DNA of 36,825 nt from assembly GCA_021838445.1 (NCBI GenBank), contig JAKCDU010000034.1:1-36825 (forward strand). Direction: 5' to 3'. A model generated the notes under the pieces. The model had not been told where the DNA came from. It did not search any database and worked only from the letters and a program-made list of their open reading frames with translations. The position numbers were made by a program, and so were the translations under genes. This DNA comes from Actinomycetes bacterium (GTDB lineage Bacteria > Actinomycetota > Acidimicrobiia > Acidimicrobiales > Palsa-688). Every line of letters starts with the position of its first letter. The stretch's first letter is position 1. Positions 5,964 to 29,421 of this stretch are shown piece after piece.

Positions 5964-6395
5964 ATGTCACGGGTGAACACCTATCTCAACTTCGCCGGCC
6001 GGGCCGAGGAGGCGTTCGGTTTCTACGCCGGGATCTTCGGTACCGAGATCGCCATGCTCAGCCGCTTCTCGGACATGCCCGATATGGGGCCCGGAGCGCT
6101 TCCGCCCGAGGAGGCGGGGCTGGTCGTGCACGCCGAGCTGCCCATCATCGGTGATCACCTGCTCATGGCCACCGACATGTTGGAATCCATGGGCCACCAG
6201 GTCCGCATCGGCAACAACACCACTATCTGCCTCGACGTCGACAGCCGCGACGAGGCCGACCGGCTCTACGGCGCCCTGTCCGACGGCGGCTCGGAGGGAG
6301 CGCCCATGGCCGACATGCCCTGGGGGGCCTACTGGGGGGTCATCCTCGACCGCTACGGCATCCGTTGGATGGTCAACCACACTCCGGCGCCGTAG
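5964..6395 (+). CDS. VOC / PhnB-like glyoxalase-fold protein
   Basis: This 143-residue cytoplasmic protein has a GAGGGGAG ribosome site 4-5 nt before ATG 5964. The pattern is that of the PhnB-like vicinal oxygen chelate group: VNTYLNFAGRAEEAFGFYAG at the N-terminus, a central VHAELPIIGDHLLMATDM block, and a C-terminal WGAYWGVILDRYGIRWMVNH. 'LNF-GxAEEAFxFY' and 'GIRWMVNH' are characteristic of that family, sometimes annotated as 3-demethylubiquinone methyltransferase-like. No enzymatic activity is established for most members. The usual metal-binding positions are partly replaced, so a binding or chaperone role is as likely as catalysis. It is the first of four VOC proteins in the window and stands alone, ending at a hairpin shared with the convergent aldo/keto reductase gene. 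Confidence 0.88.
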   Translation: MSRVNTYLNFAGRAEEAFGFYAGIFGTEIAMLSRFSDMPDMGPGALPPEEAGLVVHAELPIIGDHLLMATDMLESMGHQVRIGNNTTICLDVDSRDEADRLYGALSDGGSEGAPMADMPWGAYWGVILDRYGIRWMVNHTPAP

Positions 6396-14790: not shown

Positions 14791-15453
14791 TCAGGACGCC
14801 TCGGGAGGGCGCAGGCCGTGTTCGTAGACGAATATGACCGCCTGCACCCGGTCCCGTAAGTGGAGCTTGGCCAGGATGCGGGTGACGTGGGTCTTGACCG
14901 TGGCCTCCGACAGGTAAAGCTTCTCGGCGATCTCGCCGTTGGACAGACCCGAGGCCATCTCCATCAGGACCTCGCGCTCGCGGGCGGTGAGCTCGCCCAT
15001 CGGGTCGGGTCCGGTGACCGGAGACGTCGGCAGCTGGCCGGCGTAGCGGTTGAGCAGCTCGCGGGTGATGCGCGGCGAGACCACGGCGTCGCCGGCGGCG
15101 ACCGAGCGGATAGCCGCCACCAGCTCGTCGGGGGGCACGTCCTTCAAGAGGAAGCCGCTGGCTCCGGCGTGGAGGGCGGCGAAGGCGTAGTCGTCGAGGT
15201 CGAAGGTGGTGAGGATCAGGACCCGGGTGGGGATCCTCTGCGCGATGATCCGCCGGGTGGCTTCCACGCCGTCCATGACCGGCATGCGGACGTCCATGAG
15301 GACCACGTCGGGCCGGTGGCGGCGAGCCTCCTCCACGGCCCGGGCCCCATTGTCGGCTTCACCGACGACCTGCACGTCGTCGACGGCGTTGAGGACCAGG
15401 CGGAAGCCGGTGCGGATGAGGGGCTGGTCATCGACCACCAAGACGGTGCTCAT
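14791..15453 (-). CDS. NarL/FixJ-type response regulator
   Basis: This 220-residue two-component regulator is the partner of the overlapping histidine kinase gene (kinase stop 15450, ATG 15453). The receiver domain (about 1-120) has the acidic pair Asp8/Asp9, phospho-acceptor Asp54 (VVLMDVRMPVMDG), the Thr of LILTTFD and the Lys of FLLKDVP. The C-terminal LuxR-type helix-turn-helix is at about 150-215 (ELTAREREVLMEMASGLSNG, IAEKLYLSEATVKTHVTRIL). It most likely controls its own operon, which encodes an ABC permease, in response to a signal seen by the kinase. Confidence 0.96.
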   Translation of the reverse strand: MSTVLVVDDQPLIRTGFRLVLNAVDDVQVVGEADNGARAVEEARRHRPDVVLMDVRMPVMDGVEATRRIIAQRIPTRVLILTTFDLDDYAFAALHAGASGFLLKDVPPDELVAAIRSVAAGDAVVSPRITRELLNRYAGQLPTSPVTGPDPMGELTAREREVLMEMASGLSNGEIAEKLYLSEATVKTHVTRILAKLHLRDRVQAVIFVYEHGLRPPEAS

Positions 15454-16736
15454 GGATGCCCGTAGTCGAGCAGCAGGCGGGCCCGGACGGCCCAGCCGCC
15501 CCCCAGGGCCGGTCCGGCGTCCAGGGTACCCAGGTACAGGCCCACACGCTCCTTGATCCCCGTCAGGCCGTGGCCGGCCGCCGCCGGTGGGCCGGTGGCG
15601 GCCCACCCGATCGCCGGGGGGCGCCCGTTGTCGGTGACGGCGATGTCCACCATCCCGGGCATCCAGTCGACGGCGACGGTGACGGAGGTGGGTTGGCGGG
15701 CGTGCTTCAACACGTTGGTGAGGCTCTCCTGGATGATGCGGTAGATGTTGGCCTCGGTGGTGTCGGCCAGGTCCGGGACCCGGCCGCGCACCCGGTAGTC
15801 GGCTTTTATTCCGGCGCCCCTTACGGTGGTGAGCAGGGCGTCGAGGCTGGCCAGGGTGGGGTGGGGTTGGAACTCGGCGGGGCTCCCGTCGCGCAGGACG
15901 CCGAGCAGGCGCCGCATCTCGGCCAGAGCCGAGCGTCCGGTCGAAGCCGACTCGACCATGGCCTGATGGGCGGCCTCCGGGTCCCGGGCCCCAGCCGCGG
16001 CGGCCCCGTCGGCGAGGGCGATCATCACAGACAGGGAGTGGGCGACGATGTCGTGCATCTCCCGGGCGATCCGGGCCCTCTCGGCGGTGGCCGCCAACCG
16101 AGCCTGCTGGTCCCGCTCGCGCTCCAGGCGCCGGGCCCGGTCCTCCAGGGCTTCGAGGTACTCACCTCGGGTGTGCACCGTGGTCCCGGTGAACAACGCC
16201 GCGGTGGCCAGACCGGTGAGGAACACCAGCGACCCGAGCGCCCCGCCGTGATCGGGCGAGTTGCGAAAGGAGGTGGCGACGACCATGACCTCCAGGATCA
16301 CCGCGGCGGGCAGCGCCCGCCGCCAGCCCCTCTCGGCGGCCACCGTATAGAGGGCCACCAGCAGCCCGAAGTCGGCCACCAGGTGCTCGCCGACCGACCA
16401 CTGGGCTACGTACACCGCGATCGCCGTCGCGAACACGGCGCTCGGGTGGCGCCGCCGGAACAGCAACGGTAGGAGCAGCAGCTGCTGGAACAGCCAGGCC
16501 TCCCAGGCCAGGTGGGTGCGGGCGATCTGCAGGCTCGACAGCGCCTCCAGGACCACCACCACGGCCCCGTCGAGCACCTCGGGCCGGCGGTGCCACCAGG
16601 TGGCGTGGGGCCGGCCCGGGTAGGTCATGATGCGCCCGACCAGCGTCGCCGGCCGGGCGCGCCCACCCGAGGCCGGTGAGCCGGGGGCTGGCTCGCGGCC
16701 CTCGAGGGACGGGCTGGGCGCGGGGACGGAGGTCAC
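15450..16736 (-). CDS. Sensor histidine kinase (HisKA_3 / NarX-like)
   Basis: This is a 428-residue membrane kinase. The GTG at 16736 overlaps the permease stop (GTGA), and its own stop overlaps the regulator start. The N-terminal half has four or five hydrophobic segments (about 58-72, 84-94, 100-118, 122-138, 143-155 and 168-185) with very short loops, the intramembrane-sensing type. A coiled segment (about 195-220) leads to the dimerisation helix with phospho-acceptor His228 in AREMHDIVAHSLSVM. The ATPase domain carries the N-box IIQESLTNVLKHA, the G1 box VTDNGRPP and the G2 box GHGLTGIKERV. Intramembrane-sensing kinases paired with ABC permeases usually report on antibiotics or envelope stress. 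An internal ATG (residue 37) is an alternative start. Confidence 0.93.
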   Translation of the reverse strand: MTSVPAPSPSLEGREPAPGSPASGGRARPATLVGRIMTYPGRPHATWWHRRPEVLDGAVVVVLEALSSLQIARTHLAWEAWLFQQLLLLPLLFRRRHPSAVFATAIAVYVAQWSVGEHLVADFGLLVALYTVAAERGWRRALPAAVILEVMVVATSFRNSPDHGGALGSLVFLTGLATAALFTGTTVHTRGEYLEALEDRARRLERERDQQARLAATAERARIAREMHDIVAHSLSVMIALADGAAAAGARDPEAAHQAMVESASTGRSALAEMRRLLGVLRDGSPAEFQPHPTLASLDALLTTVRGAGIKADYRVRGRVPDLADTTEANIYRIIQESLTNVLKHARQPTSVTVAVDWMPGMVDIAVTDNGRPPAIGWAATGPPAAAGHGLTGIKERVGLYLGTLDAGPALGGGWAVRARLLLDYGHP

Positions 16737-17557
16737 ACGTCCTGGCGCACCAGCCGCCAGGCTCCGGCCGCCAGGGCGACCCCGGCCCAGAGGACCATGA
16801 CGGCCAGTCCCACCCAGGCGGAGAGCGCGCCGGGGCCGGGGTGCACGCCGACGAGGGCATTGCCGGCGTTGTTCGGCAGGTAGGGCAGGACGTGCTGCTG
16901 CCAGCTGGCGGGCAGGAGACTGCCGAGGAGCGGCAGCACGAGGAGCAGACCGAAGGTGGCGGCGATGCCGCCGGCCGTCGAGCGGATGAGGAACCCGAGC
17001 CCCATGGCCAAGGCGCCCGCGACTGTCAGGTACAGGGCGGCGCCGACGACCGAGCGCAGGGCGTGGGGCGCCCCGAGGATCGTCGCGTGGGTGCCCATGA
17101 CGGCCTGGGCCACGAAGAACGAGGCGAAGGCGGCGACCAGCATGGTCACCAAGGTCATGACCGAGAACACCGCCAGCTTGGACCACAGCACCGGGAGGCG
17201 GCGGGGCTCAGCCGAGATGGTGGAGCGGATCATCCCGGTGGCGTACTCGCCGGTGATGGCCAGGACGGCGACCACCCCGATGGCCAGCTGGGCCAGGTCC
17301 ATGCCGGCCAGGCTCTGCGAGACGGGGTTGAAGTCCCGGGGGATGGGCTTCTGCGAGGTCATCGCCCACGATGAAAGCACTCCGAAGCCGGTCATGCCGG
17401 CGAAGGCGACGGCGTAGGTGATCCACGTCGAGCGCAGGGTGGTGAGCTTCACCCGCTCTGCTGAGATCAGCCGGCGCAGGGTCACCGCGTGGATGGGGAC
17501 CCGGCGGGTGGTGGGTCGCCCCAGGGCGCCGGGCGCGGGGAGGTCGATGGTAGTCAC
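16733..17557 (-). CDS. ABC-2 type transporter permease (paralogue)
   Basis: This is a 274-residue membrane protein with about six spans, with ATG 17557 overlapping the end of the ATPase remnant by 4 nt. After a polar N-terminus comes ISAERVKLTTLRSTW, matching the basic entry of the permease at 4001-4828. It also shares the post-span motif GEYATGMIRSTISAEPRRLP and the later LIRSTAGGIAATFGLLLVLP. It should form the membrane channel of an exporter, but the ATPase encoded just upstream lacks its catalytic core. It would therefore need an ATPase from elsewhere, possibly that at 4825-5745, or may be inactive or purely sensory with the downstream kinase. Confidence 0.9.
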   Translation of the reverse strand: MTTIDLPAPGALGRPTTRRVPIHAVTLRRLISAERVKLTTLRSTWITYAVAFAGMTGFGVLSSWAMTSQKPIPRDFNPVSQSLAGMDLAQLAIGVVAVLAITGEYATGMIRSTISAEPRRLPVLWSKLAVFSVMTLVTMLVAAFASFFVAQAVMGTHATILGAPHALRSVVGAALYLTVAGALAMGLGFLIRSTAGGIAATFGLLLVLPLLGSLLPASWQQHVLPYLPNNAGNALVGVHPGPGALSAWVGLAVMVLWAGVALAAGAWRLVRQDV

Positions 17558-24180: not shown

Positions 24181-25059
24181 TCAACTCGGGGCGGCCGACC
24201 CGACGAACGGGGCGTCCCCGAAGGCGAAGATTCCGCCGTCCGCGCCGAGCAACCAGTAGCCCTGATGGTCCGGGGTCACGGCCATGGAGACCACCGCAGC
24301 GGCCAGTCCCACGTCGGCCGTCGAGCCGTAGAACGGGGCGCTGCCGATGGTGAAAACCCCCCCGTCGCCACCGAGCAACCAGACCCCGACGTCGGTGGCG
24401 GTCCCGTGGTCGACCACATCCACGAACGGCGCGTTGGGCGGGACCGACGAAAGGTCCGCCCATCCGCTCGGCCAGCTACCAGAGGAGAACCCGAACACGG
24501 CCAGGGCCCCCCTTGCCGTGACCAGCCAGTAGTGCGAGTCGTCGGCGAAGGCGTTGAGCGCGGTGACGGGGCCATCGAGGCTGGTGGCGCCGACCAAAGA
24601 GCCGGAAAAGCGGGCGTCGCCGAAGGCGAACACACCACCGTCGGACGCGGCCAGCCAGTAGCCGCCACTGTCGGGGGTCGCCGCCTCACCCACCACGGGG
24701 GCCGCGAGGGCCAGGTGGGCGGCCGACCCGAAGAAGCGGGCGTCGCCGAAGCTGAACACTCCGCCGTCGGAAGCCACCAACCAGTACCCTCCGCCATCGG
24801 CGGTGGCGGCGATCCCCACGACGGGAGCGGCGAGGCGGACGCCGTTCAGAGATCCGTGCCCGACGGCGTCACCGAAGGGCAGGACGTCGCCCGCCGCGGT
24901 GGCCACCCAGTAGCCCCGCCCCGACACCGTGGAAGCCAACCCCACCGCCCGGTCGCCCGGCATGACCGCCGGTGACACCGTCGCCGCGGCCGGCCCGACC
25001 CAGATGAGCCCCCACGCCAAGGCCACCGATCCCAGCACCACCCTCAACCGCCAGCCCAC
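24181..25059 (-). CDS. Secreted GYWLVASDGG-repeat protein
   Basis: This is a 292-residue exported protein. The GTG at 25059 is preceded by AGGAGGT at a 6-nt spacing, better than the TTG six codons upstream. A signal peptide covers about residues 1-27 (LRVVLGSVALAWGLIWVGPAAA). The mature part is made of about five imperfect repeats of 45-50 residues: 'GYWLVASDGGVFSFGDARFF' then 'GSAAHLALAAPVVGEAATPD', with further copies starting GYWVATAAGDVLPFGDA, GYWLAASDGGVFAFGDA, VWLLGGDGGVFTIGSA and GYWLLGADGGIFAFGDA. The fourth copy is degenerate (HYWLVTARGALAVFGF). Such repeats probably fold as a beta-propeller. They are common in Acidimicrobiia exported proteins, where they occur alone or behind enzymatic domains. 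No catalytic domain is present here. Confidence 0.85.
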   Translation of the reverse strand: MGWRLRVVLGSVALAWGLIWVGPAAATVSPAVMPGDRAVGLASTVSGRGYWVATAAGDVLPFGDAVGHGSLNGVRLAAPVVGIAATADGGGYWLVASDGGVFSFGDARFFGSAAHLALAAPVVGEAATPDSGGYWLAASDGGVFAFGDARFSGSLVGATSLDGPVTALNAFADDSHYWLVTARGALAVFGFSSGSWPSGWADLSSVPPNAPFVDVVDHGTATDVGVWLLGGDGGVFTIGSAPFYGSTADVGLAAAVVSMAVTPDHQGYWLLGADGGIFAFGDAPFVGSAAPS

Positions 25060-25143
25060 AGCCGCACCTCCTGACAAGGTCCGTTAGCCATGGTGGCGTG
25101 GTCGCCTGGCCAGGACTAGAGGCCTTCGGTCCCCTCGATCGCC

Positions 25144-26935
<1,792 letters not shown>

Positions 26936-26948: not shown

Positions 26949-27090
26949 CCCGACGGGCCCGGCAAATGCACCGATGCCCCGCCACCAGCCGCTCGCGGCG
27001 CGCCGCCGCCGGTCCTCCTGTCGGGTGGACGCAACCTCGGCGCAGGGTCACTGGCCCGCCTCTCGGAGGCCGGCACTACCTTCGGGGGAC

Positions 27091-27360
27091 ATGAACGAGC
27101 TCCGGCACCACATGCACGTGGTGTTGGCCAAGACCGAGAGGTGGCTGGCCGACCTCGTCCCGGCGTCGCTGAGCGAGATCATCGTGGCCCGGCCCTTCCC
27201 GGACCGGATCTCGTCCACGTACAGCGCCTGGGTGGCGGACGAAGCGGGCCTCACCCGGCTGGACGGCATCGAATGCTGGATGTACCACCACGGGCTGCGC
27301 CACATGGGCGAGATCGAGCACGCCCGGGGGCTGGTCGGGTTGCAGGGCATGACCTCCTGA
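27091..27360 (+). CDS. Short DinB-like protein
   Basis: This 89-residue protein has GGGGGAC before ATG 27091. The C-terminal half, CWMYHHGLRHMGEIEHARGL then VGLQGMTS, resembles the last helix of DinB/DUF664 proteins ('H..RHlGEie..rgl.Gl.G'), which bind metal with three histidines in a four-helix bundle and act in thiol-dependent chemistry or damage response. The protein is about half the usual length and lacks the N-terminal helices, so it may be a truncated copy or an independent two-helix unit. No upstream fragment in another frame was recognised. Confidence 0.5.
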   Translation: MNELRHHMHVVLAKTERWLADLVPASLSEIIVARPFPDRISSTYSAWVADEAGLTRLDGIECWMYHHGLRHMGEIEHARGLVGLQGMTS

Positions 27361-27479
27361 TCCGATTGCTCCCGACCAGGTTGCAGGTGCTCCATCGGCG
27401 GAGAAACGGGCGCGCTCTCCCGAACCCCCGAGCCTGCTCCACCTCTGTCGGATCCTCTTGGGGTTCTCGGGTTTCGCTA

Positions 27480-27881
27480 CTACCCGGCGAAGGTAGCGAA
27501 GGTCCAGTGGTTGCCGTCGGGGTCCTCCACGGTGAAATCACGCGACGGGTAGTCCGACCGATCGACGATCGAATGGACCACCGTCGCGCCGATGGCGCGG
27601 GTTCGCTCCAGCACGGCATCGGGATCGGAAGTAACGACATGGAGAGAGCTGGTTCCCGGCCGGCACGGAGTGGCACGCTCGCCCGTGCTGGAGAGCAGCA
27701 CACGACCACCCTCGGGCCAATCCAACTGGCAGTGATGGATCAACCCGCCCTGCTCGCCCGGGATCATCAGGTCCTCGGTGAATCCGATGGCCAGCAACCA
27801 CTCGCGCAACGCCACGGCGTCGTCACTGACGACGCTCGCCCAGATGCTCGGCTGACGGATACCACTCGCTCGGATGGCCAT
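27480..27881 (-). CDS. VOC family protein
   Basis: This is a 133-residue single-domain glyoxalase-fold protein starting at ATG 27881. The two beta-alpha-beta-beta-beta units are visible: PSIWASVVSDDAVALREWLL, AIGFTEDLMIPGEQG, HHCQLDWPEGGRVLLSS, then TSSLHVVTSDPDAVLERTRA, ending in the terminal strand RDFTVEDPDGNHWTFATF with 'DPdGN.W.f'. The His in HHCQLDW and the final region are candidate metal ligands. This form is close to the PhnB/'AhpD-like VOC' proteins of unknown substrate. It is a single gene. Confidence 0.88.
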   Translation of the reverse strand: MAIRASGIRQPSIWASVVSDDAVALREWLLAIGFTEDLMIPGEQGGLIHHCQLDWPEGGRVLLSSTGERATPCRPGTSSLHVVTSDPDAVLERTRAIGATVVHSIVDRSDYPSRDFTVEDPDGNHWTFATFAG

Positions 27882-28074
27882 GGCCTGCCGAATCTACCTT
27901 TCGTCAACAGCGACCGTCGTGCCGCGGTGTCCGGCCGCCCCTGATCACCGCCAGGTGGTGATCGCCGCCTTCACCAGGAGACGCCACGCCCCCGACTGTG
28001 CCCGGGGTGTGCGGTCGGACGCGCCGTGGCTACTGGCCGAGCCCGAGATGCTTCGCTCGGACCGACACGGAACA

Positions 28075-28104
28075 TTGCCTGCACCATTTGCGTAGGCATA
28101 ATAT
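28075..28104 (+). promoter_or_regulatory. Sigma-70-like promoter
   Basis: TTGCCT at 28075-28080 and TAATAT at 28099-28104 (18-nt spacer; overlapping CATAAT at 28097 with a 16-nt spacer) form a recognisable housekeeping promoter 33 nt before the small gene at 28137. An AGGAG ribosome site lies at 28128-28132. Confidence 0.55.
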
Positions 28105-28136
28105 CGGTGGTAACAGCGTCGATGATCAGGAGCGAC

Positions 28137-28292
28137 ATGGCAGAGTTGACAGCAGAGCAGAAGGAGCACTTGGCAGCGATTGATGCCAAGGTGGAAGCGA
28201 GGATCGAGCTCTCAGCAGAGGACGTGGCTTTCCTGGAGGAGAACGAGGAGGCTCTGGAGAGCATTCCTGCCGACGAAGTGGAGAGCGAGTAA
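28137..28292 (+). CDS. Small acidic protein of unknown function, 51 aa
   Basis: This short helical, strongly acidic protein reads MAELTAEQKEHLAAIDAKVE, then ARIELSAEDVAFLEENEEAL and ESIPADEVESE. ATG 28137 follows AGGAG; an ATG at 28122 would add five residues. Its TAA stop overlaps the next ATG by one base (TAATG), so the two genes are translationally coupled. Third codon positions are A or T in 14 of 51 codons, clearly more than in neighbouring genes, and TAA is used as stop. I do not recognise a family. The charge and size would suit an antidote, an inhibitor or a leader-like partner of the second protein, but nothing shows this. Confidence 0.7.
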   Translation: MAELTAEQKEHLAAIDAKVEARIELSAEDVAFLEENEEALESIPADEVESE

Positions 28293-28615
28293 TGCCGCCG
28301 ATCCCCGACGAGTTCACCATCACACAGGGCTTCCCTGGTACCTACCGGAACCTAGGCGGCGTTTCGTGGTACAAGGACGGCGACACGAACGCTGATGTAC
28401 CACACTTCACCGTCAACGGCGACCTGTCTGCGTGGCACCTCACGTACATGGTTGGTGGCTTCAACGTCGGTATCTGGTATCACGGCGACCGGTTCAGCAA
28501 CGTCAACTCGAGGAATCTTCCGCCCAGCAGATACCTGCAGTGGAAGCGGTGGGACGACGCCCACTGGGAGGAATGCGACGCTGCCGCTGCCGATTTCTAC
28601 GATCAGTTCGGCTGA
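28292..28615 (+). CDS. Hypothetical protein, Trp/Tyr-rich, 107 aa
   Basis: This is the second gene of the coupled pair. The protein begins MPPIPDEFTITQGFPGTYRN and contains many aromatic residues (seven Trp, with VSWYKDGD, SAWHLTYM, GIWYHGDRF, YLQWKRWDD, HWEECDA). Alternating polar/aromatic segments suggest mainly beta structure, with a helical C-terminal 20 residues (EECDAAAADFYDQFG). There is no signal peptide or membrane span, one cysteine, and no motif that I recognise. As with its partner, codon use is less GC-biased than around it. The unit could have been acquired recently. No function is proposed. Confidence 0.7.
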   Translation: MPPIPDEFTITQGFPGTYRNLGGVSWYKDGDTNADVPHFTVNGDLSAWHLTYMVGGFNVGIWYHGDRFSNVNSRNLPPSRYLQWKRWDDAHWEECDAAAADFYDQFG

Positions 28616-28760
28616 CGAACCAGGCGACTTCAAGGACCACGACGACTTCGCAGGCCACGGATCGTTACCGGCACCTCCCATCCTGTCGATGACTCTGGTC
28701 GGGGGATGGGACAGGGCGAAGTAGTTGGCTGAGCGTGCTCAGTCGAGAAGGGAAACCCGA

Positions 28761-29309
28761 ATGATCCTGTCCACTCATGCGTTCTTCCAGCAGGCCTACC
28801 TCGTCAACGACCTCGAGGAGTCGATCGAGAAGTGGAACCGCCTGTACGAGGCTGGACCGTTCCACATCAGCCCGCACCATCAGACCGAGAAGTTCTCCTA
28901 CCGGGGGACCAACCAGCAGGCCGATGTCTCCTACGCCTTCGGGTACCTGGGTGACCAGATGATCCAGTTCGTCCAGCAGCACGACGACATTCCGTCCATC
29001 TATCGGGAGATGTACGCCGCCGGTGAGGAAGGGTTCCATCACGTCGGGATCCTCGTCCACGACTTTGCCGAAGAACGCCAGCGCTTCATCGACGCCGGTT
29101 TCGAGGTGGCGTGCGAGTTGTGGGCCGACGGTGTCGATGCCGCCTACATCGACACCCGCTCGGTCAACGGAGGGTTCACCGAGCTGCACGGTGACCCCCC
29201 GCACATCCTGGGATCCTTCGCTCGTTGGAAGCGCCAGCACGAGCTGTACCGTCCCGGCGACCCCGTCGTCGTTCCCCGCATACCGTCTTGGCCGCCGGCC
29301 GGCACCTGA
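28761..29309 (+). CDS. VOC family protein (methylmalonyl-CoA epimerase-like)
   Basis: This is a 182-residue protein with GAAGGGAAA before ATG 28761. The fold pattern is that of Glyoxalase_4 / epimerase-like VOC proteins: FFQQAYLVNDLEESIEKWNR, LYEAGPFHISPHH, YAFGYLGDQMIQFVQQHDD, then EEGFHHVGILVHDFAEERQR, FIDAGFEVACELW and the strand VNGGFTELHG. The HHVGILV His and TELHG Glu are the usual metal ligands. Homologues in Actinobacteria are annotated as VOC proteins or as steroid/fatty-acid catabolism-linked epimerases; the substrate is unknown here. A Trp/Pro-rich tail follows the domain. Confidence 0.88.
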   Translation: MILSTHAFFQQAYLVNDLEESIEKWNRLYEAGPFHISPHHQTEKFSYRGTNQQADVSYAFGYLGDQMIQFVQQHDDIPSIYREMYAAGEEGFHHVGILVHDFAEERQRFIDAGFEVACELWADGVDAAYIDTRSVNGGFTELHGDPPHILGSFARWKRQHELYRPGDPVVVPRIPSWPPAGT

Positions 29310-29421
29310 AAGGTCAATCCACAGGCCGCCGCCCGGATCAGACCCACCCGGGCCGCCGCCGCAGTACTTGACCCCGCTGAAGCGCCGCCCTGGTACGGTC
29401 TCCGACGGAGGCGCAAGCAAC

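Follow-up and report, generated by a model that had tools for sequence, protein, structure and literature searches.

A co-inherited, low-GC orphan gene pair on an accessory segment missing from a congeneric actinobacterial genome

The window, by which we mean the whole stretch of 36,825 nucleotides analyzed here (bases 1-36825 of contig C14, part of a 117-contig genome totalling 3.99 Mb), contains two small genes on the plus strand that we term P1 and P2. The pair and its start signals are as follows.

28075..28102, plus strand: sigma-70-like promoter match, TTGCCT-16-CATAAT, from a motif scan; its hexamers differ in the congener
28128..28132, plus strand: Shine-Dalgarno sequence AGGAG, 4 nt 5' of the P1 ATG; unchanged in the congener
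28137..28292, plus strand: P1, an ORF of 51 aa, acidic, pI 4.05
28290..28294, plus strand: TAATG stop-start overlap, with one base common to P1 and P2; unchanged in the congener
28292..28615, plus strand: P2, an ORF of 107 aa, aromatic-rich (6 Trp), pI 4.69

A preliminary description of this DNA had placed two ORFs here joined by a TAATG overlap, and both were recovered in place, sharing a single base. It had also credited them with a good promoter and a good ribosome site. The ribosome site stands, whereas the promoter is the weaker of the two because the congener does not share its hexamers. The promoter match is the sole sigma-70-like site in 27900-28800 (9/12 matches; shuffled sequence gave a mean of 0.2 sites, sd 0.5), and both the promoter and the co-transcription of the pair are put forward as candidates. 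A longer P1 starting from the in-frame GTG at 28026 (88 aa, with a hydrophobic stretch) was rejected: between the window and the congener, the 54 bases preceding the ATG carry 3, 4 and 4 changes by codon position, without codon-position bias, and the start at 28137 was therefore preferred.

The only source of relatives was one congeneric genome (G002; L005, a contig of 8909 bases), which over the 6429 bases compared is the DNA of JAKBAX010000177.1, from the metagenome-assembled genome Actinomycetes bacterium isolate ZJ3.bin39. In this locus the gene order, the Shine-Dalgarno sequence, the start and the overlap are all as in the window, and the proteins are 96% (P1) and 97% (P2) identical to ours, with differences at 2 of 51 and 3 of 107 residues, respectively. 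Each gene has acquired 14 base changes, distributed 3, 1 and 10 over the three codon positions. The resulting dN/dS is about 0.055 for P1 (dN 0.025, dS 0.457) and about 0.116 for P2 (dN 0.018, dS 0.155), and the contrast between synonymous and non-synonymous change is significant for both (Fisher test on rounded counts, p = 1.6e-6 and 5.0e-5). Since the changes are biased toward third positions and the Shine-Dalgarno sequence, start and overlap are kept, the two-genome comparison identifies P1 and P2 as genuine protein-coding genes under purifying selection in these frames. The orthologue set of two, one per genome, is too small for coevolution tests.

The pair also differs from its surroundings in composition. 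Its GC content is 59.1% as against 70.0% for the window, and of 1818 sliding windows of its size eight lie at or below this value, all eight overlapping the pair. A or T occupies the third position in 14 of the 51 P1 codons and 22 of the 107 P2 codons. The preliminary description had put the first gene far above its neighbours in this respect, which is true relative to 11 longer window genes (6-17%) and less so relative to the two VOC genes and the GNAT gene listed below (15-19%). In 14 window genes, hand-picked from a longer ORF list (an omitted long ORF, 15450-17186, has 18%), at least 14 such codons are found in 24 of 992 stretches of 51 codons and at least 22 in 29 of 837 stretches of 107 codons, and the total of the pair, 36 in 158, is matched by 1 of 708 stretches; as the stretches overlap one another, these counts are non-independent. 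The "foreign" character first described is thus plausible, composition alone leaving transfer unproven.

P1 and P2 lie on a segment of variable presence, the main features of which are given below.

25144-26892, minus strand: ThiC, the left flank, beyond a region of small ORFs
approx. 27361..29420, no strand assigned: the segment VOC1-P1-P2-VOC2, absent between kept flanks in the congener G001
27480..27881, minus strand: VOC1, a weak Glyoxalase_6 match (E 0.00035, 21.6 bits, below the Pfam cut-off of 23.6)
28761..29309, plus strand: VOC2, a Glyoxalase_4 match (E 2.3e-11)
matched from 29437, plus strand: GNAT gene, the right flank, after VOC2

Further to the right, beyond the GNAT gene, lie a response regulator and then a histidine-kinase-type gene. 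In G001, the third genome of the genus (completeness 94%, contamination 7%), ThiC, the small-ORF region and the GNAT gene are kept in order and window positions ~27361-29420 are missing; the left match stops near L036:5898 and the GNAT match starts at 6041-6056. Because this stretch is lacking between kept flanks, we read the alignment as the gain or loss of ~2 kb with VOC1, P1, P2 and VOC2 as a block, or stepwise with the same outcome. On neighbourhood conservation, which had been proposed as a check, the pair is kept together in L005 and absent from G001. Three genomes of the same family (G020, G006 and G003), in which ThiC alone was matched in the regions fetched, are uninformative on gain versus loss, since their flanks are not kept or, for G003, the contig ends soon after. 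No direct repeat was seen at the segment edges; the one inverted pair, at 27467 and 28746, is weak (15 bases, 87%). No tRNA was found in the window, and Pfam recognised no integrase in the 10 window ORFs submitted to it. Among eight genes or ORFs compared with L005, P1 has the highest dS (0.457, 32 sites); the others, besides P2, are VOC2 (0.102, over 86 of 182 codons), VOC1 (0.115), an ORF at ~27051-27395 (0.135), ThiC (0.172), 24184-25077 (0.337) and GNAT (0.339).

Several smaller differences were seen around the pair. VOC2 has 107 aa in L005 as against 182 aa in the window, being 75 codons shorter in frame near its start, with P1-P2 intact. The L005 counterpart runs from 7986 onward, and a relative in G056 aligns over VOC2 residues 6-160; this speaks for a loss in L005, whether genuine or produced by the assembly. 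About 129 bases at 27919-28047, between VOC1 and the pair, are missing from L005. The minus-strand 115-aa ORF at ~27048-27395 has a dN of 0.106, near its dS of 0.135, and is probably on the wrong strand; the plus strand has a frame (MNELRHH..., ending at 27360) of more gene-like appearance, although neither Pfam nor NCBIfam matched anything in 27088-27357. At 24189-24835, within an ORF of 298 aa on the minus strand that Pfam did not match, there are internal repeats, where several L005 and G001 stretches match more than one place.

In a search of 61 genomes (own included), P1 and P2 were each found in the same two, and at the thresholds used the remaining 59 yielded neither, so that neither occurred without the other, and genes living apart, which would have spoken against a unit, were not seen in this set. 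For P2 we also searched overlapping samples of the class, phylum, family and order. In the class (395 genomes), no genome but its own gave a match. It was found in its own genome plus three weak partial matches among 396 of the phylum (E <= 0.05); and in its own genome and G002, plus two weak matches each, among 32 of the family (E <= 0.1) and 397 of the order (E <= 0.01). As E-values are per genome, about 20, 3 and 4 chance matches are expected in the 396, 32 and 397 genomes, respectively. All seven weak matches are partial, three contain stop codons (L026, L027 and L072), and none was accepted as a relative; near L029, L030, L071 and L072, the matches covered by this check (L026-L028 lay outside it), no P1-like stretch was found at E <= 0.05. 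For P1, the matches listed at E <= 0.5 comprise 27 places besides its own (L044-L070), which we read as chance matches within larger frames because the shortest ORF with a start within 25 codons of the expected position has 78 aa, and 8 of the 27 have no such start. A close-relative scan of the genomes of 84,980 species returned one locus, that of the congener; the scan relies on near-exact peptides and the genome searches on one or two query sequences, so remote relatives could be missed.

Mobile-element collections were likewise empty of convincing relatives. The viral contigs searched gave no relative of P1 or P2, and 15 of them with the YLQWKRW codon pattern matched nothing past a peptide of up to 10 residues. 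P2 gave four phage records (best E 4) and two plasmid records (best E 2), all unconvincing; P1 had no phage match at E <= 10 and nothing convincing in plasmids. The Gordonia phage Dexdert gene 3 (E = 4, 26% identity over 92% of P2) has a terminase gene upstream and no P1 match, and was set aside as chance. A second copy of the pair was not found in its own genome. Searches of Pfam, PHROGs, NCBIfam and PADLOC yielded nothing above cut-off or significant for either protein, the best family matches of P1 being CSLinker (E 0.015, 15.2 bits; cut-off 27) and a PHROG at E 0.22. These results agree with the original statement that neither protein belongs to a known family, and the homology to a known family that would have told against it was not seen. 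Sequences in the PDB gave no match to P2 and four unconvincing ones to P1 (E 0.56-5.5), and none of the titles and abstract openings of the best literature matches concerned the pair.

The protein properties are in line with part of the preliminary description. P1 is indeed acidic, with 17 Asp and Glu against 3 Lys and Arg and neither Trp nor Tyr, and P2 is indeed Trp-rich, its six Trp being joined by 6 Tyr and 7 Phe. The helical character ascribed to P1 is not established, for the hydrophobic moment calculated for a helix is low, at 0.04-0.24 over 18-residue windows, and the strand-like moment reaches 0.65. AlphaFold2 models of P2, alone (mean pLDDT 44.0, pTM 0.28) or with its one orthologue (mean pLDDT 45.1, pTM 0.31), are too poor to use; the strands that they show, with a helix after them at the C-terminus (89-106), are no more than a hint at a pLDDT of about 45. 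Of the 323 matches (E <= 10) that Foldseek returned for the second model in the PDB, none reached E <= 0.001, and the beta-rich ones among the best 50 (fatty-acid binding proteins, a Ralstonia lectin, haemopexin) were not counted as evidence because the model is unreliable. The motif series G-x-Y ... WY ... W-x-L ... WY in P2 is one we take to resemble aromatic beta-repeat domains, a likeness given no weight here.

Taken together, these observations support the view of P1-P2 as a real, co-inherited, low-GC orphan pair on an accessory segment missing from a congener. The reading we favour, at a probability of roughly 45% and so somewhat short of even odds, is that P1-P2 is a lineage-restricted accessory pair, carried on the 2-kb variable segment with two VOC-type genes, whose products form a P1-P2 complex. 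It draws on the presence of both genes in two genomes and the absence of both from the third of the same genus, on selection acting on both, on the kept order and overlap, and on the overlap of the GC-poorest window stretches with the pair. Translation is commonly coupled by stop-start overlaps, and the products of neighbours coupled in this way often bind one another; such overlaps are also common in bacterial operons and do not in themselves imply binding. Since ribosomes can restart at an overlapping ATG, those finishing P1 may go on to make P2, and the two proteins would thereby be produced together and in step. P1, small and strongly acidic, could then bind P2, which is rich in aromatic residues, and help it to fold, hold it or restrain it, with P2 presumably carrying the activity; we infer these roles, and the complex itself, from the gene arrangement and protein composition.

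An unlikely alternative is that P1-P2 belongs to a detoxification or small-molecule segment, in which it helps the VOC enzymes or deals with the same compound as they do. In its favour, G001 lacks the entire segment that carries all four genes, and VOC2 lies downstream of the pair on the same strand. However, VOC1 is on the opposite strand, VOC2 starts 145 bases past P2 and is the gene shortened in L005, where P1-P2 is intact, and no relative of P1 or P2 was seen in four wide-flank regions around VOC relatives (all three VOC1 relatives outside the two carriers and one of nine further VOC2 places). A weak P1 match near a VOC relative (L042; 25 residues, 32%, E 0.005 in a small search) was read as chance. 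The flanking genes belong with the VOC/glyoxalase-bleomycin resistance superfamily, whereas P2 is without profile similarity to it, with hhalign probabilities of 0.3% and 0.2% against the two VOC proteins and no Pfam match above cut-off.

We consider it improbable that the pair is a new toxin-antitoxin module resembling type II, or a small module of self-restraint, with P1 as labile antitoxin and P2 as toxin. Two small genes with the acidic one first, a one-base overlap, patchiness within the genus and AT-richness would suit such a module. Against this, there was no PADLOC, NCBIfam, above-cut-off Pfam or significant PHROG match, no convincing relative in phage or plasmid collections and no second copy in the own genome, and the pairing of an acidic antitoxin with a basic toxin is not on offer because P2 (pI 4.69) is acidic like P1 (pI 4.05). 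Type II features described for HicAB (PMC2701414) include a small two-gene unit, occurrence in many genomes, mobility, presence in phages and plasmids, and an HTH, RHH or nuclease fold. The likeness of our pair to that account lies in its two small, co-directed, overlapping genes (51 and 107 aa, overlap kept in two of two genomes) and in its patchy distribution within the genus. In contrast to wide and mobile spread, it occurs in 2 genomes of one genus; the phage and plasmid collections and viral contigs searched gave no convincing match to it, and sequence profiles found no HTH, RHH, nuclease or known toxin domain in it, although a very distant fold could escape such profiles. The abstract of that paper names fast evolution among the defining properties of toxin-antitoxin systems (PMC2701414), whereas P1 and P2 are strongly constrained and nearly unchanged between two species. 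The analogy first drawn with antitoxin-toxin, inhibitor-effector or immunity pairs accordingly gained nothing beyond architecture. The pair may work like a toxin-antitoxin system, membership of type II cannot be claimed, and a toxin or immunity role is only modestly likely. It would be a long shot for P1-P2 to be a new conflict-module family, a toxin with its restraint or an effector with its inhibitor, of a fold outside the family libraries, carried by uncultured actinobacteria on a chromosomal segment that can be swapped.

Also improbable is that P1 and P2 are two unrelated accessory genes of phage or mobile origin, merely adjacent and sharing a transcript, as their low GC, lack of relatives and variable segment might suggest, given the tight overlap kept in the congener, the absence of phage, plasmid or viral-contig relatives in the collections searched, and the lack of an integrase among the ORFs put to Pfam, of a window tRNA and of an edge direct repeat.

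The favoured pair resembles lineage-restricted (orphan) genes in being constrained, atypical in composition and without a relative found past one genus, and differs from them in that P1 and P2 come paired, their stop-start overlap being conserved. Its present standing is that of a lineage-restricted gene pair of unproven role, and it is a fair candidate for bench testing on the strength of the selection and joint presence observed. Should P1 and P2 act as a unit, two protein families so far unrecognised would be added, together with a small accessory module whose presence and absence contrast cleanly within one genus.
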